Assembly (NCBI GenBank): GCA_949318235.1
Contig: OX439128.1
Location: forward strand, 44,224,262-44,288,261
DNA: 64,000 nucleotides
DNA from: Ecdyonurus torrentis
Lineage: Eukaryota; Arthropoda; Insecta; Ephemeroptera; Heptageniidae
Direction of reading: 5' to 3'
Position numbers and translations under genes: made by a program. The notes below the pieces were generated by a model. The model worked only from the letters and a program-made list of their open reading frames with translations, was not told the DNA's origin and searched no databases. This document shows positions 18,152 through 48,000 of this stretch, one piece after another. Within the stretch, counting starts at the first letter, position 1. Each line of letters opens with the position of its first letter.

Positions 18152-18442
18152 ATGATAAATTGAAAGAAAAGGATAGGAGAAAACCAGCAAGGGCCTTACC
18201 ATAGTGAAGAGAGTCCCATAGTTCGGTGAAAATCTTGCTAGCACAGATATAAAATAACTAACACATTGGAAATATTTCGGCAATCGACTCCATATCTCTC
18301 GTGGAGTCGATTGCCGAAATATTTCCAATGTGTTACTTATTTTATATCTGTGCTAGCAAGATTTTCACCAAACTATGGGACTCTCTTCACTATGGTAAGG
18401 CCCTTGCTGGTTTTCTCCTATCCTTTTCTTTCAATTTATCAT
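18152..18442. mobile_element. Foldback MITE of the AAGGGCCTTACCATAGTG family, copy 1
   Basis: Almost perfect inverted repeat with outer ends ATGATAAATTGAAAGAAAAG and its complement. The arms contain CAGCAAGGGCCTTACCATAG and CTTGCTAGCACAGATA. Related copies are at 30574-30912 and 31650-32020; this copy lacks their longer central loop. Confidence 0.85.
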
Positions 18443-20038: not shown

Positions 20039-23000
20039 TTAAGCATCAGAATCATACTCAATCTTAATCTTTTTTTGAGCATGAGCTTCTAGTACATGAT
20101 TTTTTCTAGCATCTTGATTTAAAAAGAATTTAATACAGAAATCACAGTTAAAGATAGGTTGCATCTGACGTCCAACAATGCGAAGATGTTGCTCCAGTGC
20201 ATCAGGATCCTCAAAATAAGAATCACAGTGAACACATTTAATGTACTTGTCTGAAGATGGTCTTCCTCGTTTCTTCTGTTTGTGAACCTCTGAGTGTTCT
20301 TTGAGTTCAGCATCAGTAAGGAACTTGAGAGGACATTTCATGCACTGAACCACAGCAGAAATATCACATATGTGAGACTTGAAAGTGATTGGTGTGAAGT
20401 TCTGAAGGCATACTCGACAGGTAAGCAGTATGTCATCAGTTGAGTCAGCTGTAAAATAATCTATGTCATCATCAAAAGATTCCTCATTCAGTTCAGTTGT
20501 GATTGGTTGGTCAGCAACTGGTTCCAGCTTAACCAATACTTTAGTATTTGGAATAGTGGAGGAGGAATCAATTTCAGACACGTTCCTTATTTTTAAACCA
20601 GGTTTAGTAGACTGATCTTGACCCTGTGAACAATACATACAAAATTATTAAAATATACATTACATAACAGTACATTGTTACTTGAAATTAACTTCTAACT
20701 CAGACAGGCTTATATAATGCCAGCACTACACTACATGTCACATTGTCACATTAAAGATATTCCCATTAATTAAGTAAAACTAAAGTATTTTGATGGATAG
20801 GTAATATAGTTATTCAATTTTCAGCTGCTTTTTATTTTATTTTATCCTGGAAGTTATATTTTGTTGTCCATTTGATCAATGTAATTTTGACCCGCAATAC
20901 ACGTCTCCAACTGACTAGTACTTTTCAGCAGGAATCTTCTTTGGATTACATAAGTTATCTAATTACATTAAGTAAAGTACAGTAATCAAAGAAAGGATAG
21001 GAGAAACCAACAAGCCCCTTATCACGATGAGGAAACTATATACAACTAGTCTCACAAAATAATATTTCTTGCAGTAAATGATTTGAAATAGAAAAATCTA
21101 TAATTTGGGGTTGATCTGGCATTTCCCCCTGAGGTCAAGTGGATAGAGGACAATATAGCAGCACAATGACAATATGTTCTGCCAGAATTTTGTGAAAAAC
21201 TTATACAACTGATTGTAGTCTGTAGTGTAGGACTGGCATAAGTCTTGTATAGCTTGGTACACATTTGACATAAACTGGGATAGTAAATTTGATTCTTTTG
21301 CTTTATAGATTTACAATTGGATTCAGATAGACTTCAAGTGCTACGTTCTAATATAGTTTGGTATTTCCATAAGTTTAAAAAAAATATCACAGTGTTTATA
21401 ACAATAAAATTAAAAATGTCTTTACTTGTTAATTATCACAAAAAAAAAAAAAAAAAGAAAGAAATGAAATGTGCTGATTTTGTTTTTATGTACTGTTGTA
21501 ATATGGTTTATGCTTACTAACAATTTTTTATATTATGTTGATTAAGCACCCACCGATAAGACTTCATTGTCTTGGTGGGACTTATGTATGTACTCTTATT
21601 TTTTATTAATAAAAAAAAAAAAAAAAAAAAGTTATTTTTACATAAAAATGAAAGGATTTTATCTACTAGATTCTAAGCTCACCCTCTCATACATTTTTTT
21701 TTTTTTAAATTTTTTATTGTTAAAGCCCTTGTCAACTTACTTTTTTTTATCATTTAGAACACTAGATTGATAATTGCCATACCTTAATATCCATGAATTA
21801 GACACCACCACGTTGATTTTGTATTTATTTTTGTTTATTTTCCTTTTTTTTTTTTTTTTTGATCTTTTTGTTTTAATTTTAAGCTTTTGTAAATAATATT
21901 CTTTCATTTTTATATTTTATTCGGCCCTTTTACTTGCCAACGTCAATAAGAGCACGTACTAAATTAATTAAACTATATGCCAAAGCGCATAATATTTATT
22001 CTATCTCTCCTACTCTATCATCTTTTTGCTTTTCCTACCCCAGTGTCAACATATAAAACGATGTAACTAGCGTGAATCACGATACTGTGCAGTCGGCGGG
22101 CGTAGTGCTCTCGCGAACTTTCTAGAGTTGGGGAACTCTGGGAAGTGAGGGAGGACACATATTGCTTACTGGCTGCCTGTCTTACACCCCTCTTAGACAC
22201 GATTTTATATTACAGTGTGAGGATGAGAGGTTTTAAATAGCAAGCCGAGTTTGCGCGCGCGATTTTAACCAATCAGCGCGTGCAGCTGCGGGGGCATCAC
22301 GTATATAAACGCGGCTGCCACTTGCTTCCTCAGCTCAGTCAGCTAGCAGATGTGGTGTGAGCCATCTCTAGCTGTACAGAGCTCTCTGCCAAGCCTTACT
22401 GATGAGTCCTAGGTAAAGGACGAAACCGGTCTAAGGCAAAGAGTAAGTCTGATGCTGTTTTATAATGTTGTGTCTTTGACGTAGTGTGAGAACGTGAGAT
22501 GCTAGGCACATCGTATGTTATTTTGACACTTTACCTCCATCCCTTTAACGTCTATTTTTTAACTAGCTAAAGCTAGAATATTTGAATCCTAGTCCCAATT
22601 TACTATATCAATTAGAGAATTTTCGCGTTTTATTAATTTTCAATTCAACGTACTCTAAGCTCTACCAACTATTTTCTAAATATTTTTTTAAACTTATTAT
22701 TTATTTTCCTTTTTGCAGTTATATCACGTATCTGACATCACAATGTACCGATGGGGCCATGATAGGGGTAAAGAACTTGACGAAGGGGCTTAAATATATC
22801 ACGTGACCAGAGTGGAGACTGTGATTGGCGGCGGTACATTGTGACGTCAGATACGTGATATAACCGCAAAAAGGAAAGTAATCGAAAATAAATACAAAAT
22901 CAATTCATGGATATTAAGGTAAAGTAATTATCAGTCTAGTATTCTAAATGATAAAAAAGTAAGTGTACAAGGGCTTTAACATTGAGAGCACCATAAAATT

Positions 23001-26000
23001 TAATGTAATTTATGGTAGTTTTGCACTCTTGTTCAGGGCTCATTTCTCAGCTCCTGGTAGGTTTATCAACTTCAAGCAAACTTGTATGAGCACTTAAGGA
23101 CATGCTGATCACAGTCACAAACTTTCAAACACACACGATCAGATGGCGTGTGTTAAGAGACCCCTGAATGTAATAATGACCCGACTGAGAGAGTTAGCAA
23201 ATACCAATATATTATGTATGAAACTCTTACAAAGATTTTTGTTGCATCAGAGGTGGGGCTGATGTGCACCAACTGCAAACCTTGGGCTTGAATCACATGT
23301 CGTCTCATCCTTTCACACTTCTCAAGTTCATTGAAGCAGACGAGGCAGATCTTGGTGCTAAGCTCATCGTGCTTACAAACCTATTACATATAAATCAAAT
23401 AAACTTATTGAAATATGTATTATCTTAGTTTTAAAATAAAATTTAATTTATTTGTTAACATACTGATCACTGATCAGTGTAAAAATATAGGTATTGATTA
23501 AGAAAAAACAAACAAACTTTAAAATACTTTTACAATAGCAATTACTAATTAAATGTAAGCAAGACATAAATTTATGATGGTGTTTATTTAATTGTGCAAC
23601 TCAATATAATTTAATATTGCTAGAACATTTGGTCCTAACTCACTACATAAATTATACAATCTATGCGTTTTATTAATTTTCAATTCAAATCTTCTAAGAT
23701 TTTCTAATCTCTCTACCTACTAATTGCTACTATTATTATTATTTATAAACTGCTATATATGTTGTTTTTTTTTCTCATTTATATATAATTTGATATTTAA
23801 TGATATTAAAAGGTATGAGTTTCTAAAGACACCAGGCATGTGAAAGAATGTGTGGAAGTGAATGCAGTGAAAGAATGTGTGGTGCGAGAAACGTTGATTG
23901 AGAAGTATAAAAGTATAATATGATACAGTACATTAGTTTCAACATGTGGAAAGGATGAGTGATAAGAAAATTGAAGGGGAGGGGGGAGTTTCATAATAGA
24001 GGAAGGAAGGAAGAAGGGGCGTGCAAGAAATATAATGGTCTGAGGCCCAAGATAGTCAATAGAGGTTTCAAATTGGAGGGGGAAAAAATATTATGTGTCT
24101 TAGGTGAAGCAGGAGATTTATGAGCAAGAATAGAAAGTTGCAGAGATCAGTCACTATACGTCAACAAGAAATTCTGATGGCGTGCCCGTAAAGACCAATT
24201 TTTTATTTATTTCACATAGGTTATACATATTTCGAGTACAATTGGTCGCTATAATTTCTTGCGATCAGCGAGCTAGGCTCATACGAAGGCAAAGTACACT
24301 TCATGATAGATATATATATATATATATATATCAGGGTTGTAGTCCTAAGGGAACGCGGTGGGACGGCGTCCTACCTGGCGAAAAAAAAAGCCAGGACCGT
24401 CCCACCTGGAAAATTTCCAGGGGAACGCGGTGGGACGGATATCTTGGCAAAATATGCCCTAATTTGTAAAATTCCTGACTAATTTTGCCGTTTATTTTGC
24501 TGAAATTTACTAAAAAAAATCGCTCGCTACGCTCGCGAGTTCCTTTTATAGCAAAGTTTATTTTCATCACTTTATTATTATTCAATTTAGGTTTATCCAG
24601 AATTTTCGCATAAGTTATTTGACTTTATTTTTCATTTTTTTTTTATTCTCAGAATAAGCCTTTAATGTCAAGTTAAATAGAAAATAGTTACAGCGTGCAA
24701 ATCGGAAAAGAGGACAGACGGTTTGTTCTCTGAGCTGTCAAAACTGTTTTCATATGGCATAAGAGGCAATAGTTTAAATTGGATTAAATCATTTTTAAAA
24801 GATAGAAAACTGTATGTTCACATCACAATTTTTGAAAATGGTAAAGAAGCTCATTATAAATCAGAAACAAAAATTATTAATCATTCTGTTATCCAAGGTT
24901 CATTACTAGGGCCAATTCTTTTTTTGTTATATATTAATGATCTTCCTTTGAATGTTGATGAATCTGCACATTCAGTTGGATATGCAGATGACTCTAATTT
25001 TAAAGTTACAGCATCTAGCAATACCATATTAAGTAATAATATAAAAAATCTTATAGCAAAAGTTAAATTTTATTTCAACCAAAATTGTCTAAAATTAAAT
25101 GTAGAAAAAACTGAAATTTTACAATTTCAAAATATTAAAAATAAAAATGATAGGTTACATAATATTGAATATGAAAATGATACTATTAATATATCTCAAA
25201 AAACAAAATTTCTAGGAATCATAATTGATAATAATTTAAGATGGTGTGATCATATAGAATACATATCTAGGAAATTATGTTCAACAATATTTGCCATAAG
25301 GGAGTTAAAACATGAAAGCCAAATCGATTGTTTAATTACAATGTACTATGCAAATTTTCATTGTCATGTAAAATATGGTATAATTTGTTGGGGTAATTCT
25401 TTGGATGCCATCAGAGTTTTTAGATTACAAAAAAAGGTTGTCAGAATCATATGTGGTGCTAGATTTAGATCTGAATGTAGAGAATTATTTAAAATTTTAA
25501 CAATCCTTACTGTCCCATGTGTTTATATACTTGAGTGTGCAATGAAAGTTAAATTTAATTTACCCTCTTTTACTAGTCATGAAACAAAACATAGTCACAA
25601 CACAAGAAATGTTAAATTGAAAATAAATAGTGTCTATAAAAGAACTGAAATGTACAATAGAGGTCCCTTCTGTGGTTGTTTGCAGATTTATAATAATCTG
25701 CCAACTTATATAAGAGAAATTGAAGACCCTATTTTGTTTAAAAAATCATTGAAAACATTACTGTTAAACAAGCAATATTATTCTATTGATGAGTTTATAA
25801 AAGATAATGTATCAGATAGCAATGCATTTATAGTCATGATTTAATTTTTCTACATATCTGTATAGATATAATTTTGTGATATTTAATGTTATAATATGTA
25901 TTATAATTATGTGTATTTTGACTATCATTTCTAATTGTATCAACTGATACAATAACCTAAGCCGATATGCTTTTGTATATTGTGATTGTAGGATGAAAGA

Positions 26001-30010: not shown

Positions 30011-33000
30011 AAAGGACCAATATGGCAGCACTGGCCTCTATATGAATACATTATAAATACAATGCGTTTCTCATGGCTCAATGCTCTGTTTTATTTAGAT
30101 GGAGAGCTCAGCAATACGTTATGGACCAGGAGTAACACAAGAAGTGGGGATGGATATGGCCAACATGAAAGTCAAGAATGTGTGTGTAATGACTGATCCA
30201 AATCTTTCCAAACTTCCACCTGTGAAGACTGTTATGGACTCATTAGCTAAGAATGGTATTAAATTCTATCTGTACGACGAAGTAAGAGTGGAACCTACTG
30301 AAGAGAGGTGATGATTAAACAATAATAAAGAAATGGATAGAAATGCCATCAAGGGCCTTTACCATAATAGAACTTCTATGGTGAGGTCGAGGTCTCATGT
30401 GGCACAGAGTTGTAGTTTATAGTTGTTATAATAATGTTTATATAACTGAATAAATTATATACAAACATTATAACTCTGTGTCACATGAGACCTTGACCTT
30501 TCCATAAACTACTACTGTGGTATGGCCCTTGCTGTTATGGAAAATAAAACATCATGCTTAGGTATGATTGATATGATAAATTTGAAAGAAAATGATAGGA
30601 GAAACCAGCAAGGGCCTTACCACAATGAAGAGAGTCCCATAGTTCGGTGAAAATCTTGCTAGCACAGATATACAAAACTATCACATACCTATAGGAAATA
30701 CTTCGGCAATAAACTCTAAGAGAGATGGAGGGTGTTATGTCTTCATCAATCCTTACATTCTCGGACTATGATATGATATGAATATGAATGATCATTCATA
30801 TTTTAGTTTTTTATATCTGTGCTAGCAAGATTTTCACCGAACTATGGGACTCTGATCTTCACTATGGTAAGGCCCTTCCTCATTTCCTCTATCCTTTTCT
30901 TTCAATTCCATTACAGTAGTAATTAAAATATGTTGCTATGCTTTTAAGAATGTACTGTATTTACTTTATATACAAATTAAATATTTTTGTATTGTTACTA
31001 ATAAATATGTTTCTCTCTGGCCTGTGATAGTCTACTTCATGCTGCTAAAGTGGCAAGGAAGGAAAATTTTGATGCCTTCATTGCTGTAGGGGGAGGCTCA
31101 GTGATTGACACATGCAAAGCTGCTAACTTGTATGCATCAGATCCAGATGCAGAGTTCTTGGATTATGTCAACCCTCCTATTGGGAAAGGAAAGAGGGTCA
31201 ATGTATCGTTAAAACCATTGATTGCTGGTAAATATTTCCTCAATTTCATTTCTTTTTCATTAAAAAATATATATAGATAATTCCCCCCCCCCCCCCCCCC
31301 CAAGTCACAATAAAGGTGTTCTAAATAAATGCAATACAGTCTCAATATATACCGTAAATGTCAGAAAAATGCATAGTTATCCATATATGGACACATTGAT
31401 ATAATTGTTTCACAGTTCCAACAACATCAGGAACAGGCAGTGAGACTACAGGAGTTAGTATTTTTGACTATCGACCTTTGAAAGCCAAGACTGGAATATC
31501 TAGTCAAACTTTGCGACCAATACTTGGCATTGTGGATCCTTTGCACACACTCTCTTTACCTGAGCGGGTCTGTGTTTATAGTGGGTAATTAAGAATGTTT
31601 ATATTTTTTAACAATTAAAAAATGTGATATTATATATCATTATTTATATAATAAATTGAAAGAAAAGGATAGGAGAAAACCAGCAAGGGCCTTACCATAG
31701 TGAAGAGAGTCCCATAGTTCGGTGAAAATCTTGCTAGCACAGATATAAAATAACTAACACGTTGGAAATATTTCGGCAATCGACTCCAAGAGAGATATGG
31801 AGCGTGTTATGCCTTCATCAGTCCTTACAGACTCAGAGAGAAACTATGAATGATCAATGATCCAATGAGAAACTCTCTTGGAGTCGATTGCCGAAATATT
31901 TCCAATGTGTTAGTTATTTTATATCTGTGCTAGCAAGATTTTCACCGAACTATGGGACTCTCTTCACTATGGTAAGACCCTTGCTGGTTTTCTCCTATCC
32001 TTTTCTTTCAATTTATCATACCTAACCGCGATGGTTTATTTTCCTTAATATACATATTATTATCGCAAAGTCGATTTCTTTCCTTAAACTCTCCTACTAC
32101 TGTATCTCTACCCTCTATCATCTTTAAATATCTTTTTAAAAATTTTAATTAAAATAAGCACTTTTTAAAATAAAATTTTTAAAATATCTTTTTAAATATC
32201 TTTTTAAAACTCTACCTCCATTTCTTATTATTATTATTTATATAAAATTTTATTAATAAATCAACAAAGAAGCAAAGTCTAGTAATTATTGGAAGTCTTG
32301 ACCACAACTTTTCATTTTTCTCATAGTTATGAGTTGAAGTCTGTTTTCAGACATAATAATGATTTCAAAGAAAAAAAAAATAGTTATTTACTTATTCCAT
32401 TACAGATTTGATGTACTATGCCATGCACTAGAATCCTTCACTGCCATACCATACACAGAACGCTCACCCAGACCTGAAAACCCACAACTACGTCCTCCAT
32501 ACCAAGGACAAAATCCAATATCTGATGTCTGGGCAAGATTTGCTTTGCAAATTATGAATAAATATTTCAAGAGGTATATCTTCTATGGTTTTTATATACT
32601 GTAGTCCACTTACGTATAATTTACAGAGATCCTCTTGTGTTTTCAGGGCTGTGTTCCAACCTGATGACTTGGAGGCTAGGTCTCATATGCACCTGGCCAG
32701 TACCATGGCTGGTGTGGGATTTGGCAATGCTGGAGTGCATCTGTGTCATGGAATGTCTTATCCAATTTCAGGACACGTCAGGAATTTTAAACCTGCTGGA
32801 TATAGGTACAGCTCTGGCCAAAAGTTCCCGAACGGGGCAGCGGCGGCCGTTGCGTTTTCTCATAAAGATAACATAGCGTGGTTGCGGGTTGCCTATGCAA
32901 ATCGTTCGGGAACTTTTGACCAGAGCTGTACATACATACACTCAAACTAAACACATATCGAGGTTGCTCCGCTATAATGTTGTAAGTCTATATGCTGCAA

Positions 33001-42093: not shown

Positions 42094-45000
42094 GAAGTGA
42101 CTCATAAAAAGATGTTAACAGAAAAACACAGATAAATTTGAAAAAAAGGGGGATAGAAGATTAAGCTGTATCTGATAGTGACGCCTTGCACACAAGAGAA
42201 AATATTCTGATACGTTCAGAAAGTTAAACACGTATTGTCGAGTTAGAGCAAAAACCGTGCATCTACAAACGCAGCAAAGTTAAAATTATTATTATATTTT
42301 GGTATGCTGTTTTGAACTTTGTTGGTTTTGAATATGCACGGTTTGTGCTCTAACCTAATGATAGTGTTACAAGAACTAGAGAGCTCAATATTTATGCTTG
42401 TAGTTGAATAGCGGGTGAAAATAGGGGGTGGTTGGCTTGCACTTGGTGCTGTGGAGTATTTGCACCACTGCACTCCAGCCACCCTCTATCCACATATGAG
42501 CATGGATAATGAGCTTGCTTGCAAGTACATTGATGCTTTTGAGGCTAAACCACTTCTATTGTTGGCAGGATTGCTTACTTTGCTGCATCCACGTTTATCG
42601 CGAGTCATTGAAACACACATCTACATTTATTGCGACACATGGTATGAAACACTGCTACATAGGAAAACAGATGTAGAAGTGTTTTATACCTGGTGTCACA
42701 GTAAATGTAGATGCGTGCTTCTAAGACTATTGGGATAAATGTAGATGCATGAAAGTTAGCAAATCCGCTAAAAGTAGAAGTGTGGTATAGTCGCAACAGC
42801 ATCGATATACTCCTTTGCAACTTGTAATGCTTGTAATGTATGCTTTCAATTTTAGGGTGAATTAGAATATTTTCTCCAATCAGTATCAAATCAATCTTCC
42901 ATTTCCCAATTTTTCAAATCTATCTGTGCGCTTTTCTATTAAATATTTTTATCAGTCAACTATCAAAAAGTAAGTTATTCCTTCTTTTTTTATATATAAA
43001 TAGTATTATTGATTGTATTTACATTTTGAATTCATATAATATAAACATTCAACTATATTGATTAAAATACATATCAGTGATACTAATCTACATTACTAAT
43101 CTACATTACATGCAATTTAACATTCAAATAAAGTGATGTGCTAAAAGTATTTCAGGGCAACACATAAATATTAATTGAGTGCTAGTGAAACAGGGACCTA
43201 TTTAAAGTTTACTGAAGTAAACCATCTTTGTAACATTATTGTCCATTTATTAAGTTTATGCTTAGACAGCATTTCATGAGGGACTACTAAATGCTTTGTA
43301 CTCTACATAGTGGATATAAAATAGTAATCACTCAATTTTAAAATGCTTCCTTCTCATATGAAATATTTTTGTCACAATGGATTTTTAAGTTGACATATTG
43401 ATGTTGTTGCGAGCAATATGTGTAACTCGTTTTTTGTCACGGAAAGCAAAATGTCTATCTCGTTATTTGTCACGCGTTGCAATATGTGTATCTCGTTTTT
43501 TTGTCAAGCTAAGCAAAATGTGTAAGTCATTTCCGAACAGTATGTAGATGGCGCTCGACTTACACAAATTGCTTACCTTGACAAAAAAACAAGATACACA
43601 TATTGCTAAACGTAACAAATAACAAGATAAACATTTTATTTTTTGTGACAAAAAAGAATAAAAAAAAAAACGCATCACACACATTGCTCATAAAATAGAG
43701 ATCAGCAATATAGCTAATATATTGATCATTGATGTATCAGCATACCCAATACTTTGGCTTCAATAGTATCAATACTTTTTTGAGCCGATTTATATATTAA
43801 TACTTAAAGCCAACCATCGGTATTTGATACTTTCTGGAAAAAAAAAATCTAATAAATTTTTTTTTCAGTAAAAATTCTTAAATTAAAAAAAAAAAAAATC
43901 AAAATCAAAATGCTATAAATGCTGCACTGGTATGGTATATTTAAGCAGTACTCAATGTATTGGATATCAATCTATCAACAAATGTGTTTTTTTATTATCA
44001 TTTAAACATTTTTTTTTAATGCTACAAAGAGGTTGTACTTGAAAATGTTGAACATAAGAAGGTAGCAAGCAATAACATGGCTGAAACTGCAGGGAAAAGA
44101 TTAAAATTTAACAATCTCAAATGATCATCTACTAAACCTTACTGTTAAAGGTGTAGAACACCTAGAACAAAAAACATGTCTAATATCCTAATATACCTAA
44201 ATATCAACGTTGATTTGGCCGGAGTCATTTATTTCCAATTTATTTTCCATTTACAAAATCACAGCTGCGGGTTTGTGACGTCACAGCTCACTAGTCCACT
44301 CGCTCGGAAACAGGCGAGCTATGACGTCTCAACCCCGCAGCTACCATTTTGGGACTGGAAAATAAATTAGAAATAAATGACTCCGAGCAAATAACCGTTG
44401 ATATTTAGGTATAATAGGATATCAGACATGTTTTTTGTTCAAAGTGTTCTACGCCTTTAAAGACAATTTATAAAACACTTTCTGATACCCCTTATAATGA
44501 ATAACTGTATATCATTATTTTTATGACATTTGTTAATTATCACCGTAAAATTTTGATTTTGTGAATGAGGATTATTGATGGAGTAGCCTATAATTTTTAA
44601 ATGAGAATACATTTATGTATTTTAAGCCAGCAAAAAATTTAAGAATATTTGAAAGCAAATAAATGGAATAATATATTAGATTTTGTCTCCCGATTTTCTA
44701 AATAATAAAATGGCTATATTCTGGGTCCCTCGTAATTTCACTAGTTTGCTGTAATATCGATTATGTATTTATTATGATGAATTTTAAGCATAAATAGAGA
44801 AATAGAAAAGTTATTAATTCATATAACATTTGCATTTAATATTTATTATTTTTTTTACTTATTTAGAATAATGAAAAGAGAAATAGGAAGATGAGAAGAA
44901 AAATAATACTAGAATAAAATACAAATAAATACAATGAAAACAAATTATTGATAACAAATTTCTTACCACTCTTCATCTTTATGTGTAACAAAGAAGTCAT

Positions 45001-48000
45001 TGAGTTGTTGTCGCTTGAACTCCAGTTTATACTCGTTGTATTTACGTATGGCTTCCTCGTCTGAAATATTATCATCTTGGGTTTGCAGGAATGCCTTGAA
45101 TGACATCATCGCTGGTTGCGTCTGTCCGACATCAGCATCCCTGAAACAGAACATCATCACATTGTACTTTTTTTATTTACAATGTCTCGCTCTAATGAGG
45201 CTGACTAAAAAAAAAAAGGTGTTAATTTTATATCATATTCTATATGAGGAAATTGTCCTGAATTGATTGATATGCAAATGTCTAATTTTTGAGTTCATTG
45301 TGTGTTTTGTAATTAATTTTGGAAATTTGAAAATGAGGTTAAGGGCGGCAACTTAGGCATGTGGAAATAGGAAAAAGTTACTTACCTAAATGTATGTTTA
45401 CTCCAAAAAACGGAAAAGGAAACCATGTGACGGTAAAAGTGGAAGAAAAGTTGGTGCCAGCAGCATGCTAGGCCTGAGCTATTGCCCACTTTTACCGTCG
45501 CGTGGTTTCCTCTTCCAGCACTTCCTTTTTCCGCATTTTGAGTAAACATAAGTGGTCCGTGACATCATTTTGTAAAAATTAATTAAAAATATTAAATGAA
45601 CTCAAAAATGAGCAATTTGCATATCTATTGAATCAAGACAATGCCCTCTTTTAGAATACCTATGCAATAAAATTAACCCCCTCAATTTTTTTTGCTCTTC
45701 CTCATAAGTGGAAACTCAACACTCCAGAAATAACATGCAAAATTTTCAAATAAAGTGAATAGTAATTTGAAAAGTGATTTCATGCATTAGAAATTAAGTA
45801 CTAATTATTAATCAAACAAATTGACTTATGATTTTTTTTTTGTAACAAATACAGCATAAGTCATTCAAAAAAAGTATATATCGACGTTGTTGCGAAAAAA
45901 ATGTGTAAGTCGTATTTTGCCAGGCGAAGCAAAATGTGTAAGTTGTTTTTTTTTCACGCTAAGCAATACGTGTATCTCGTATTTTGTCACGCGAAGTAAA
46001 ATGTGTAAGTCGTTCCCGAACGTTATGGAGATGGCGCTCGACTTACATATTGCTTCGCGTGACAAAATACAAGATACACATATTGTTTAGCGTGACAAAA
46101 AACGACTTACACATTTTGCTTTGCCTGACAAAATACGAGTTACACATTTTTTTCGCAACAACGTCAATATGTATTAACTCTGTCAAGAAGCATATTAAAC
46201 CAAAAGACTGAAATTCTTGACAATCATAAAGACTGAAACAAAATGTTCATTTTTGTCTTTGTCTCCTTTTATGATTATTTTTTCTTCTCAATTGAAATAT
46301 TTTGGATATCACTCAACTTTGTTACTAAAATATAATTTGTACCACATTGGTACAAATGGATTTGAATACAGGACACATTTTGCATTAAGAGCCAATATTT
46401 CAATCAAAAGAAAGAAAAAAAAAAAAAAAAACTTTCTAAAACACCTTGTAAAAACTTCAAACACATGTGTTGAATCACACCACACAACAATGTTGTTATA
46501 TATTTCTCCAACATTGCAATTTTCAACTAAAATTTCTTACTATATACAAATCTTGGACACCCCAATATAAAAAGTTAAATCACAACAATAACATCAAATG
46601 TCTAACCTTTTCTTGATGAGGAGAGATGTCCTGTTTGCAATGTTAATCAAATTAATATTAGCAATTAATGTTATAATAATTTATCAGACTCTTTAACTTT
46701 AATGTGAAAAGCATTATGTTAATTATATTTGAAAATGAGCTGTATTTTTGTCATGTTAAATGGCACAGTTAACTTACCTGTTGTTACCGTGACTGCCATA
46801 TTGAGACCCTGGATGTGGGTAGTGGCTTTCTGGGGGTCCCCAGGGATTGTTGGTATAACCTCCTGTATAACTTCCAGAATCAGCTACGTAACGTCTCTCA
46901 TCTCCCCTAAACATACAGATACAAAGGAATTTTCTTAATGTAATGGAGAAAAAAGTGGATAGTTGATATCTTATAAAAATAATGTTTGAAGTTCAAATTT
47001 TTATTTAAAGGCATAGAACACCTTAAACAAAAAAGTTGTGTAAAATCCTATCAACGTTGATTTGGCCAGAGTCATTGATTTCTAATTTATTTTCCATGCA
47101 CAAAATGGCGCGAACAGGCAATTACGTCACAGTTTGCTTGTTTTACGCACTTGTAGACCAGGTGAGCTGCGACGTCATTGCCCGCTCACGCCATTTTGTG
47201 AATAGAAAATAAATTAGAAATCAATATATAAGCCATATAAGCGTTGATTTTCAAGTTTGTTAGGATATTGCACAACTTTTTTGTTCAAGGTATTCTACGC
47301 CTTTAATATTGTCTGAAAAAGCTAAGAAATAATAATAAAGCTTAGGGCAGGGGTTCATTCTTATCCCACCCCTGCGATAGCATCCATAAAGTTAGCACAG
47401 TCCTAACTTTTGTCTAACTGAGGCAAAAGAGAGAGAGAGAGAGAGAGAAACTACAGAATTATTAGGGACTCTAATCCCTGTAACTCTAAGCTCGTTACTA
47501 TCTCCCATTCCCCAATTTTCCCTAATTTATTAGGTAGTGTTTTTCTAACAAATATTTTTCTTATTACTGTAATCCTCACATTGTTAATTGTGCCTTAATA
47601 ATTATCATGCAGATTATTGTGGTCATATATTCTTACCAGTCTGTTCTACTTCTTTTGATGGGCTGAGATATTTCATGTGAGCGACCAGGTGGACTAAATC
47701 GATCCCTCGATCCTGCTCCATTGCCAGCACCACTGCGTCCCGTCGCTGCACCACTTTGCCTGTACTCAGAATAGTTACTCTGCACGCGGTTCCTACCACC
47801 TCCCCAGTTGTCAGAACCCCTGTAAATACATCAAACTTTAATATTTACAAATGTTGATTGCAGTTGAAAATATTTAATTACGGTACGTATATTGTTTTTT
47901 GAGAAAAAAACATGTTAAAAAATAAATGAAATATTTAAGCTCAGTTTTACCTATTTTGATACTGAAAGGAATTAGCTCTTTCTTTCAACCTTTTAGCTTC

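Follow-up and report, generated by a model that had tools for sequence, protein, structure and literature searches.

Introduction

Hammerhead ribozymes of type I, retrozymes and Penelope-like elements (PLEs) are all known already. PLEs with minimal hammerheads have a poor stem III, head-to-head inversion, an optional tail of 30–40 bp and target duplications (PMC6155905, PMC7761336), and metazoan non-LTR (long terminal repeat) retrozymes are AT-rich tandem repeats without an open reading frame (ORF), each unit carrying one type I hammerhead and the insertions bearing target duplications (PMC7229834). We describe an element with a type I hammerhead from a stretch of 64,000 nucleotides of Ecdyonurus torrentis (contig OX439128.1, positions 44,224,262 to 44,288,261, forward strand; hereafter the window, with positions counted from its first letter), together with a coding PLE of the same genome by which it is probably copied. 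New here are the documented partnership of the two elements, the 887-bp ribozyme unit, and the lack of a detectable hammerhead in a coding PLE.

The unit resembles PLEs with minimal hammerheads in its stem III, in its head-to-head copies with a tail on one side, and in its short target duplications. It differs from them in having no ORF for reverse transcriptase (RT) and GIY-YIG, which is present in the partner (with a weak GIY-YIG match), and in that the coding element has no recognisable hammerhead (0/31 loci, one of which spans a whole unit); according to the available text of PMC6155905, all available PLE sequences carry one. Because the unit lacks a PLE-type RT/GIY-YIG ORF, we regard it as a non-autonomous relative or parasite. 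A close parallel is Poseidon of Anolis carolinensis (PAc), whose protein cuts and extends both strands at AT-rich targets and whose RT starts internally at two adjacent sites that bound the tail (PMC11167929). The ends in E. torrentis point to the same two starts, the same two-strand extension and AT-rich targets; PAc carries its own hammerhead at the junction of pseudo-LTR and ORF, whereas here the ribozyme belongs to a non-coding element of its own. In Adineta vaga, too, Penelope families have inverted pseudo-LTRs, a one-sided tail of 31 bp, inverted junctions that are palindromic and a TATA box with an initiator, and unrelated sequences caught between their pseudo-LTRs have been moved in trans; unlike the window element, they have a low copy number, and the available text describes no multi-unit ribozyme arrays (PMC3846280).

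The unit shares with metazoan retrozymes tandem repeats with one type I hammerhead each, the absence of an ORF, a low GC content and target duplications, and the axolotl retrozyme has a weak palindromic stem III that acts as a dimer, as is predicted for stem III in the window (PMC7229834). In contrast to these retrozymes, the unit measures 887 bp rather than about 150–450 bp, and it has TATA- and initiator-like sequences, head-to-head arrays with PLE-type tails and a Penelope partner with the same tail. The satellite hammerheads of newt and axolotl have the same single-pair stem III with a palindromic tetraloop and need a dimer for good cleavage; their repeats are 330–350 bp long, unlike our unit, and the available text describes no Penelope-type ends for them (PMC7229834).

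PLEs or Terminons have been called 'likely candidates' for mobilising retrozymes, and the role of the minimal PLE ribozymes 'still a mystery' (both from the available text of PMC7761336). The occurrence of the same tail on a ribozyme element and a Penelope element in a single genome makes an unusually direct case for what spreads ribozyme elements. Literature screened by title or by the start of the abstract contained no description of a hammerhead unit and a coding PLE with a common tail; the key papers on PLE hammerheads lay outside that scope, and we make no claim that such a pair is unpublished.

Results

The ribozyme element is a young, abundant, protein-less mobile element. When its own genome (503 Mb) was searched for the cassette, as the initial annotation had proposed, near-identical copies appeared: with a 121-base ribozyme probe, all of the best 40 places scored, out of 1067 first-look candidates, were 100% identical, and a second probe without the ribozyme gave 42 listed matches at 99–100% (590 candidates, 40 scored). 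Copy numbers are therefore first-look candidate counts and not exact. The arrangement of the units was read from 20 fetched stretches plus one array of 17,075 bp. In the 20 stretches, units of 887 bp with one hammerhead each are arranged in tandem and head to head, and the hammerhead was found by descriptor in 20/20 loci, with six units of one locus (L249) scoring 30.0 bits against Rfam. The unit has a GC content of 39% and no coding capacity, the longest stop-free stretch in a doubled unit being 63 codons. The long array (contig C20, positions 2720053–2737127; ends L303 and L305, centre L304) consists of 18 units, 12 on the minus strand followed by 6 on the plus strand, with a spacing of 887 bp inside the arms (886 in one case); its 12-unit arm is about 11.3 kb long and its outer ends lie at unit positions 840 and 875.

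These ends follow a rule. The outward 3' ends of the unit arrays fall into two narrow zones about 34 nt apart, and each of the 16 two-ended arrays in the fetched stretches has exactly one tailed end, at unit positions 871–887, the other end lying at 830–846 in 14/16 (the exceptions being 820 in L264 and 779 in L261). One tailed and one shorter outer end were seen in 17/17 two-ended arrays, with both ends in the expected ranges in 15/17. At the inner, head-to-head junctions, mostly different unit positions are joined with an overlap of 0–7 nt; the junction in L249 is a perfect palindrome, and in L268 the two arms likewise meet at one and the same unit position. Shared end words of at least 9 nt flank 17/22 insertions, compared with 3.9% in controls. 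Three of these 17 are doubtful (in L261 and L262 they do not abut the ends, and what flanks the second insertion in L264 is an AT repeat), leaving 14 clean target duplications of 11–17 nt.

A Penelope-like element of the same genome ends in the same way. In one stretch, the tail of the unit was found at the 3' end of a frame, of which the stretch contains the C-terminal portion. Among the best 125 of 672 candidates that were scored, all matches were 97–100% identical (E < 1e-199), with open frames of up to 1027 codons and internal stops in a few copies; the open frame is RT/GIY-YIG-like. One homologue has a motif that we take to be of PLE-type RT (RVT_1, E 0.014). A precomputed PF26215 annotation, presumably a PLE domain, is present in 3/5 homologues; for protein P0001, no relative was found among solved structures at E ≤ 1. 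The full copy L302 shares 27/29 tail nucleotides with the unit (E 2e-7), and 52 nt comprising the tail and the sequence just beyond it are 81% identical. All 16 two-ended Penelope pairs (9 within one locus, 7 made of neighbouring loci joined as one insertion by their closeness) end at 832–846 and 871–882 in unit coordinates, and copies with a single visible end stop at 836, 847, 872–874, 877 and 885. Within 12 kb, the best 125 matches include 39 head-to-head and no tail-to-tail neighbours. Target duplications of the Penelope element are visible in the flanking letters, unscored. As for a hammerhead in the pseudo-LTR, the non-coding unit has one; in L302, Rfam gave no match with an E-value cut-off of 1, and the descriptor found none in 31 sampled Penelope loci (L302 and L272–L301), of which 30 are pieces of 3.9 kb around the C-terminal part and only L302 spans a whole unit.

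Considering the shared tail and the shared end zones, we have good confidence that the ribozyme unit is a non-autonomous element copied by this Penelope-like retrotransposon, with which it has in common a tail lying between two RT start zones. The initial annotation, which had named PLEs and retrozymes as relatives, was thus looking in the right direction, and our best reading of the unit is a retrozyme-like parasite of the Penelope element. Target duplications, two outward end zones, head-to-head arms, tandem units and the identical end zones of the Penelope element were read from the sequence; mobilisation of the unit in trans by the Penelope protein would account for them.

Rare variants (present in at most 6/47 pieces, a few of which, e.g. 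230T, recur in several insertions) run through units of the same insertion. Three near-full units of L253 have 149T, 261C and 343C in common, both arms of L255 carry 204G and 230T, and in the 18-unit array 230T occurs in the first unit, the minus-arm junction unit and the last unit, which are all three of the places read that cover position 230. Units differ by a mean of 0.8% within insertions (46 pairs, a figure inflated by alignment ends) versus 1.6% between insertions (972 pairs). L251 (2032–2175) and L266 (4390–4466) contain diverged relatives of the unit whose hammerheads have decayed, so older sub-families exist.

The hammerhead itself lies at 22393–22437 on the plus strand and is the only one in the window. 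Read directly from the sequence, it comprises stem I (GCCTTA, 22393–22398, with TAAGGC, 22432–22437), the catalytic core CTGATGA (22399–22405), stem II (GTCC, 22406–22409, with GGAC, 22418–22421, plus a T-A pair), the core GAA (22422–22424), the stem III palindrome ACCGGT (ACC, 22425–22427, and GGT, 22428–22430) and the cleavage-site C (22431), with self-cleavage predicted between 22431 and 22432. Folding adds an outer stem I beyond an internal loop (CTCT, 22384–22387, with AGAG, 22440–22443), giving a total extent of 22384–22443. The motif has the CUGANGA and GAA boxes, an A-U pair beside the cleavage site and three stems, and it is open at stem I, as expected for type I. Both this direct reading and the alignment to Rfam Hammerhead_1 (RF00163), which is full-length, bear out the position and the mismatch-free core given by the initial annotation. 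In the covariance check that it had suggested, the alignment has an E-value of 3.7e-5 for 1 kb and of 0.0023 for the 64-kb window; its 30.0 bits fall short of the gathering score, which is 34, and for that reason the scan of the whole window at gathering thresholds gave no hit. The low score is probably due to the short stem III.

A strict descriptor (stem I ≥ 5, stem II ≥ 4, stem III ≥ 3) matched once in the window and never in 150 random sequences of 64 kb drawn from a first-order Markov model; once the minimum for stems I and II was lowered to 3, this random set gave 4 matches. Among 75 core-motif matches listed from 121 sequences (at least 119 prokaryote stretches, one viral contig and the window), only that of the window had a stem I of at least 4 bp, and none of the listed matches in the prokaryote stretches did. 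Viral contigs with the window's stem II followed by GAAAC gave at least 129 motifs in at least 120 loci, at least 88 of them with type I closure; among the matches listed, the stem III of the latter is mostly 5–7 bp with a 4-nt loop, two are formally loop-less, and none of the viral motifs has ACCGGT. As the viral matches listed mostly have a real stem III and never ACCGGT, the short stem III of the window ribozyme resembles the animal and Penelope class (as far as described in the available text of PMC7229834, PMC6155905 and PMC7761336) and not the scanned viral motifs. Read by eye, the type I hammerhead of one viral contig found with the window's core pattern (L001, 1–100) has a true hairpin, ACCGG...CCGGT, for its stem III.

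The initial annotation had described stem III as a loop-less ACC/GGT helix. This pairing is valid for a dimer only: no hairpin can close with a loop of 0 nt, and the stem III of a monomer can therefore consist of no more than a single A-U pair enclosing CCGG. The best predicted fold of a lone 60-mer (-17.7 kcal/mol) pairs away part of the hammerhead core, whereas cofolding of two copies gives a double hammerhead as the best structure (-37.9 kcal/mol, versus 2 x -17.7 for the monomers), in which the two ACCGGU segments pair with each other and both strands contribute to stem I; the ACCGGT self-duplex has -8.3 kcal/mol. The cofold is purely a prediction, from a nearest-neighbour model that takes no account of tertiary contacts, and it yields a dimeric ribozyme, in agreement with the suggestion that the self-complementary ACCGGT lets two molecules pair.

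In the window, an older inverted-repeat element of 398 bp is interrupted by a retro-insertion of 839 bp that carries the ribozyme and is flanked by a target duplication of 15 bp. The insertion (21861–22699, plus strand) is a single copy of the ORF-less 887-bp element, without tandem repetition, covering unit positions 1–839 with a tailless 3' end and 98.8% identical to the 887-bp unit, which was taken from contig C4; unit position 1 was defined from this copy, so its 5' start has no independent fix. The target duplication TTTATTTTCCTTTTT flanks the breakpoint at 21834–21848 (left copy) and 22700–22714 (right copy, both plus strand). The 12 extra T between the left copy and the element (21849–21860, plus strand) do not occur in the unit, which is preceded by GCTAAGTC; they likely arose by expansion of a T run. 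The interrupted element, which was the insertion target and is like a miniature inverted-repeat transposable element (MITE), occupies 21718–21848 (left part) and 22715–22981 (right part) on the plus strand. As they stand, its inverted repeats (21718–21848 and 22868–22981) align over 131 columns; with 21849–22714 removed, the repeat extends to 22832 and spans 167 columns (138 identical), a gain of 36 columns. Because rejoining lengthens the repeat and TTTATTTTCCTTTTT stands on both sides, the foldback must be the target of the insertion, and the ribozyme arrived with the insertion.

Two pattern matches and one candidate splice site lie near the ribozyme on the plus strand. A putative promoter (22302–22340) consists of a TATA box and a TCAGTC initiator with A+1 at 22337, 95 nt before the cut; the spacing pattern occurs twice in the whole window versus 1.57 expected, which is not above chance, and TATAAAA and TCAGTC are also present in the 887-bp unit. 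GTAAGT (22443–22448), read directly after the ribozyme, is a possible splice donor and is present in the unit as well. The segment AGGTAAAG of loop II and stem II (22411–22418) has an exact complement at 22529–22536, probably by chance, as it is only 8 nt long and the insert holds nine words of this kind.

Discussion

The ends of the arrays fit what was found for PAc (PMC11167929) and appear to add that each insertion uses one start zone per side, i.e. that each strand of the target cut uses a different zone. That every insertion examined with both ends has one tailed and one shorter end also constrains the mechanism of PLE integration. We propose that the Penelope protein would make a staggered cut in AT-rich DNA and prime two cDNAs, one per strand and per start zone, which would then be joined head to head. 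Less certain are the RNA steps, in which array transcripts would be cut by hammerheads paired as dimers through ACCGGU, the 887-nt product would be ligated into a circle, and repeated copying round the circle would give the tandem units. A circular template is suggested by the long tandem arms together with the rare variants common to units and arms, and the hammerhead could supply it. The full scheme, with a coding PLE without a hammerhead as the source of enzyme and a non-coding element that mimics its tail, is cut as a dimer to 887 nt, circularised and copied from both strands into arrays of up to 18 units, is one that we put forward as plausible but tentative. Since the tail and the start zones are common to both elements and the sampled copies are near-identical, what mobilises retrozymes and what PLE hammerheads do can be put to a direct test that needs just one protein and one RNA.

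Several observations weigh against parts of this account. On the side of the partner, GIY-YIG in another homologue is weak by Pfam (E 0.078), and a search of the genome with PF01541 did not recover the Penelope-like element, its 2 matches from 45 candidates being a large unrelated frame and what we take to be an SLX1-like gene. Beyond the tail region, the similarity between L302 and the unit amounts to one weak AT-rich match of 50 nt (E 4e-4), and the best 125 Penelope-like matches include no tandem neighbours, a weak contrast as the arms are rarely long enough for two units. On the side of the unit, 5/22 insertions have no clear target duplication, units within some arrays differ by up to 5.8% (for short overlaps, and partly through alignment ends), and only 1/24 inner breakpoints (from 12 of 16 arrays) falls within 10 nt of the ribozyme cut. 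Conservation of the ribozyme cannot be argued from the copies, as most were picked with a ribozyme-bearing probe. For cleavage, circularisation and rolling-circle copying, the evidence consists of sequence and predicted folding. Finally, the PAc ribozyme needed the protein, and its cleavage was dispensable for insertion in vitro (PMC11167929), and where an array was homogeneous already, its linear transcripts would likewise give homogeneous arrays.

It is quite possible that the Penelope machinery mobilises long read-through transcripts of arrays as linear templates, the tandem units being multimeric transcripts and the hammerhead weak or silent. The missing breakpoint peak at the cut site, a best monomer fold that disrupts the ribozyme core, the dispensable PAc ribozyme and Penelope arms mostly too short to show a second unit all agree with this; against it, the 12-unit arm with its near-constant spacing needs a source array at least as long, which itself requires an origin, and the rare variants run through units and both arms as repeated reading of one circle would give. 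An ordinary metazoan retrozyme, a small circular-RNA element whose link to Penelope is coincidental, is unlikely. The tandem units with one type I hammerhead each, lack of an ORF, GC content and target duplications of more than 4 bp are like those given in the available text of PMC7229834, but the length of the unit is not, and the tail and start zones common to both elements leave little room for coincidence.

The remaining alternatives arise from the window alone. A minus-strand retroposon, with the T run at 21849–21860 as its poly(A) tail and the ribozyme antisense to the mobilised RNA, would explain why T12 adjoins the target duplication; we rejected this very improbable reading because the T run is not part of the unit and it is the sense 3' end of the unit that faces outwards on both sides of two-ended arrays, with no tail-to-tail neighbours listed. 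The initial annotation had placed the ribozyme inside a DNA-type foldback element. Inverted repeats do flank it, and the unit contains weak 30-nt inverted arms (22042–22071 and 22501–22530, 80% identical) around its promoter-ribozyme part, which none of 100 shuffles matched and 24/69 other window stretches equalled; the palindrome of the whole insert is marginal (6/300 shuffles as good). However, the outer repeat gains its 36 columns only once the insertion is removed, and elsewhere in the genome the unit sits between different flanks with target duplications of its own, so the ribozyme is not a part lying between the inverted repeats and the foldback (or MITE) reading is refuted, its probability being negligible. 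The statement that such a ribozyme is unusual in an arthropod was also too strong: putative Aedes hammerheads with a palindromic stem III (PMC3088659) and retrozyme-like repeats of crustaceans and insects (PMC7229834) are reported in the available texts.

Genomic context of the insertion

The gene that hosts the insertion appears to lie on the minus strand, where two complementary zf-AD half-domains, both under the Pfam cut-off, were found at 27.1–27.4 kb (E 0.037) and 23.2–23.4 kb (E 0.0027), and a zinc-finger exon at 20.0–20.6 kb. Genes of this kind point to an arthropod. A location in an intron, as initially annotated, is therefore probable, and since the exons of the host gene are on the minus strand, the ribozyme is probably antisense there. 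An old fragment of a related element (23619–23688, plus strand) is 75% identical to unit positions 712–786. The same region contains a 387-codon open stretch with an RVT_1 domain (24681–25844), a LINE-like remnant. Large hairpins at 45881–46167, 18195–18399 and 43429–43656 matched microRNA models with scores under gathering and are probably inverted-repeat elements. Further along the plus strand, two exons of an iron-containing alcohol dehydrogenase gene were identified at 31005–31588.
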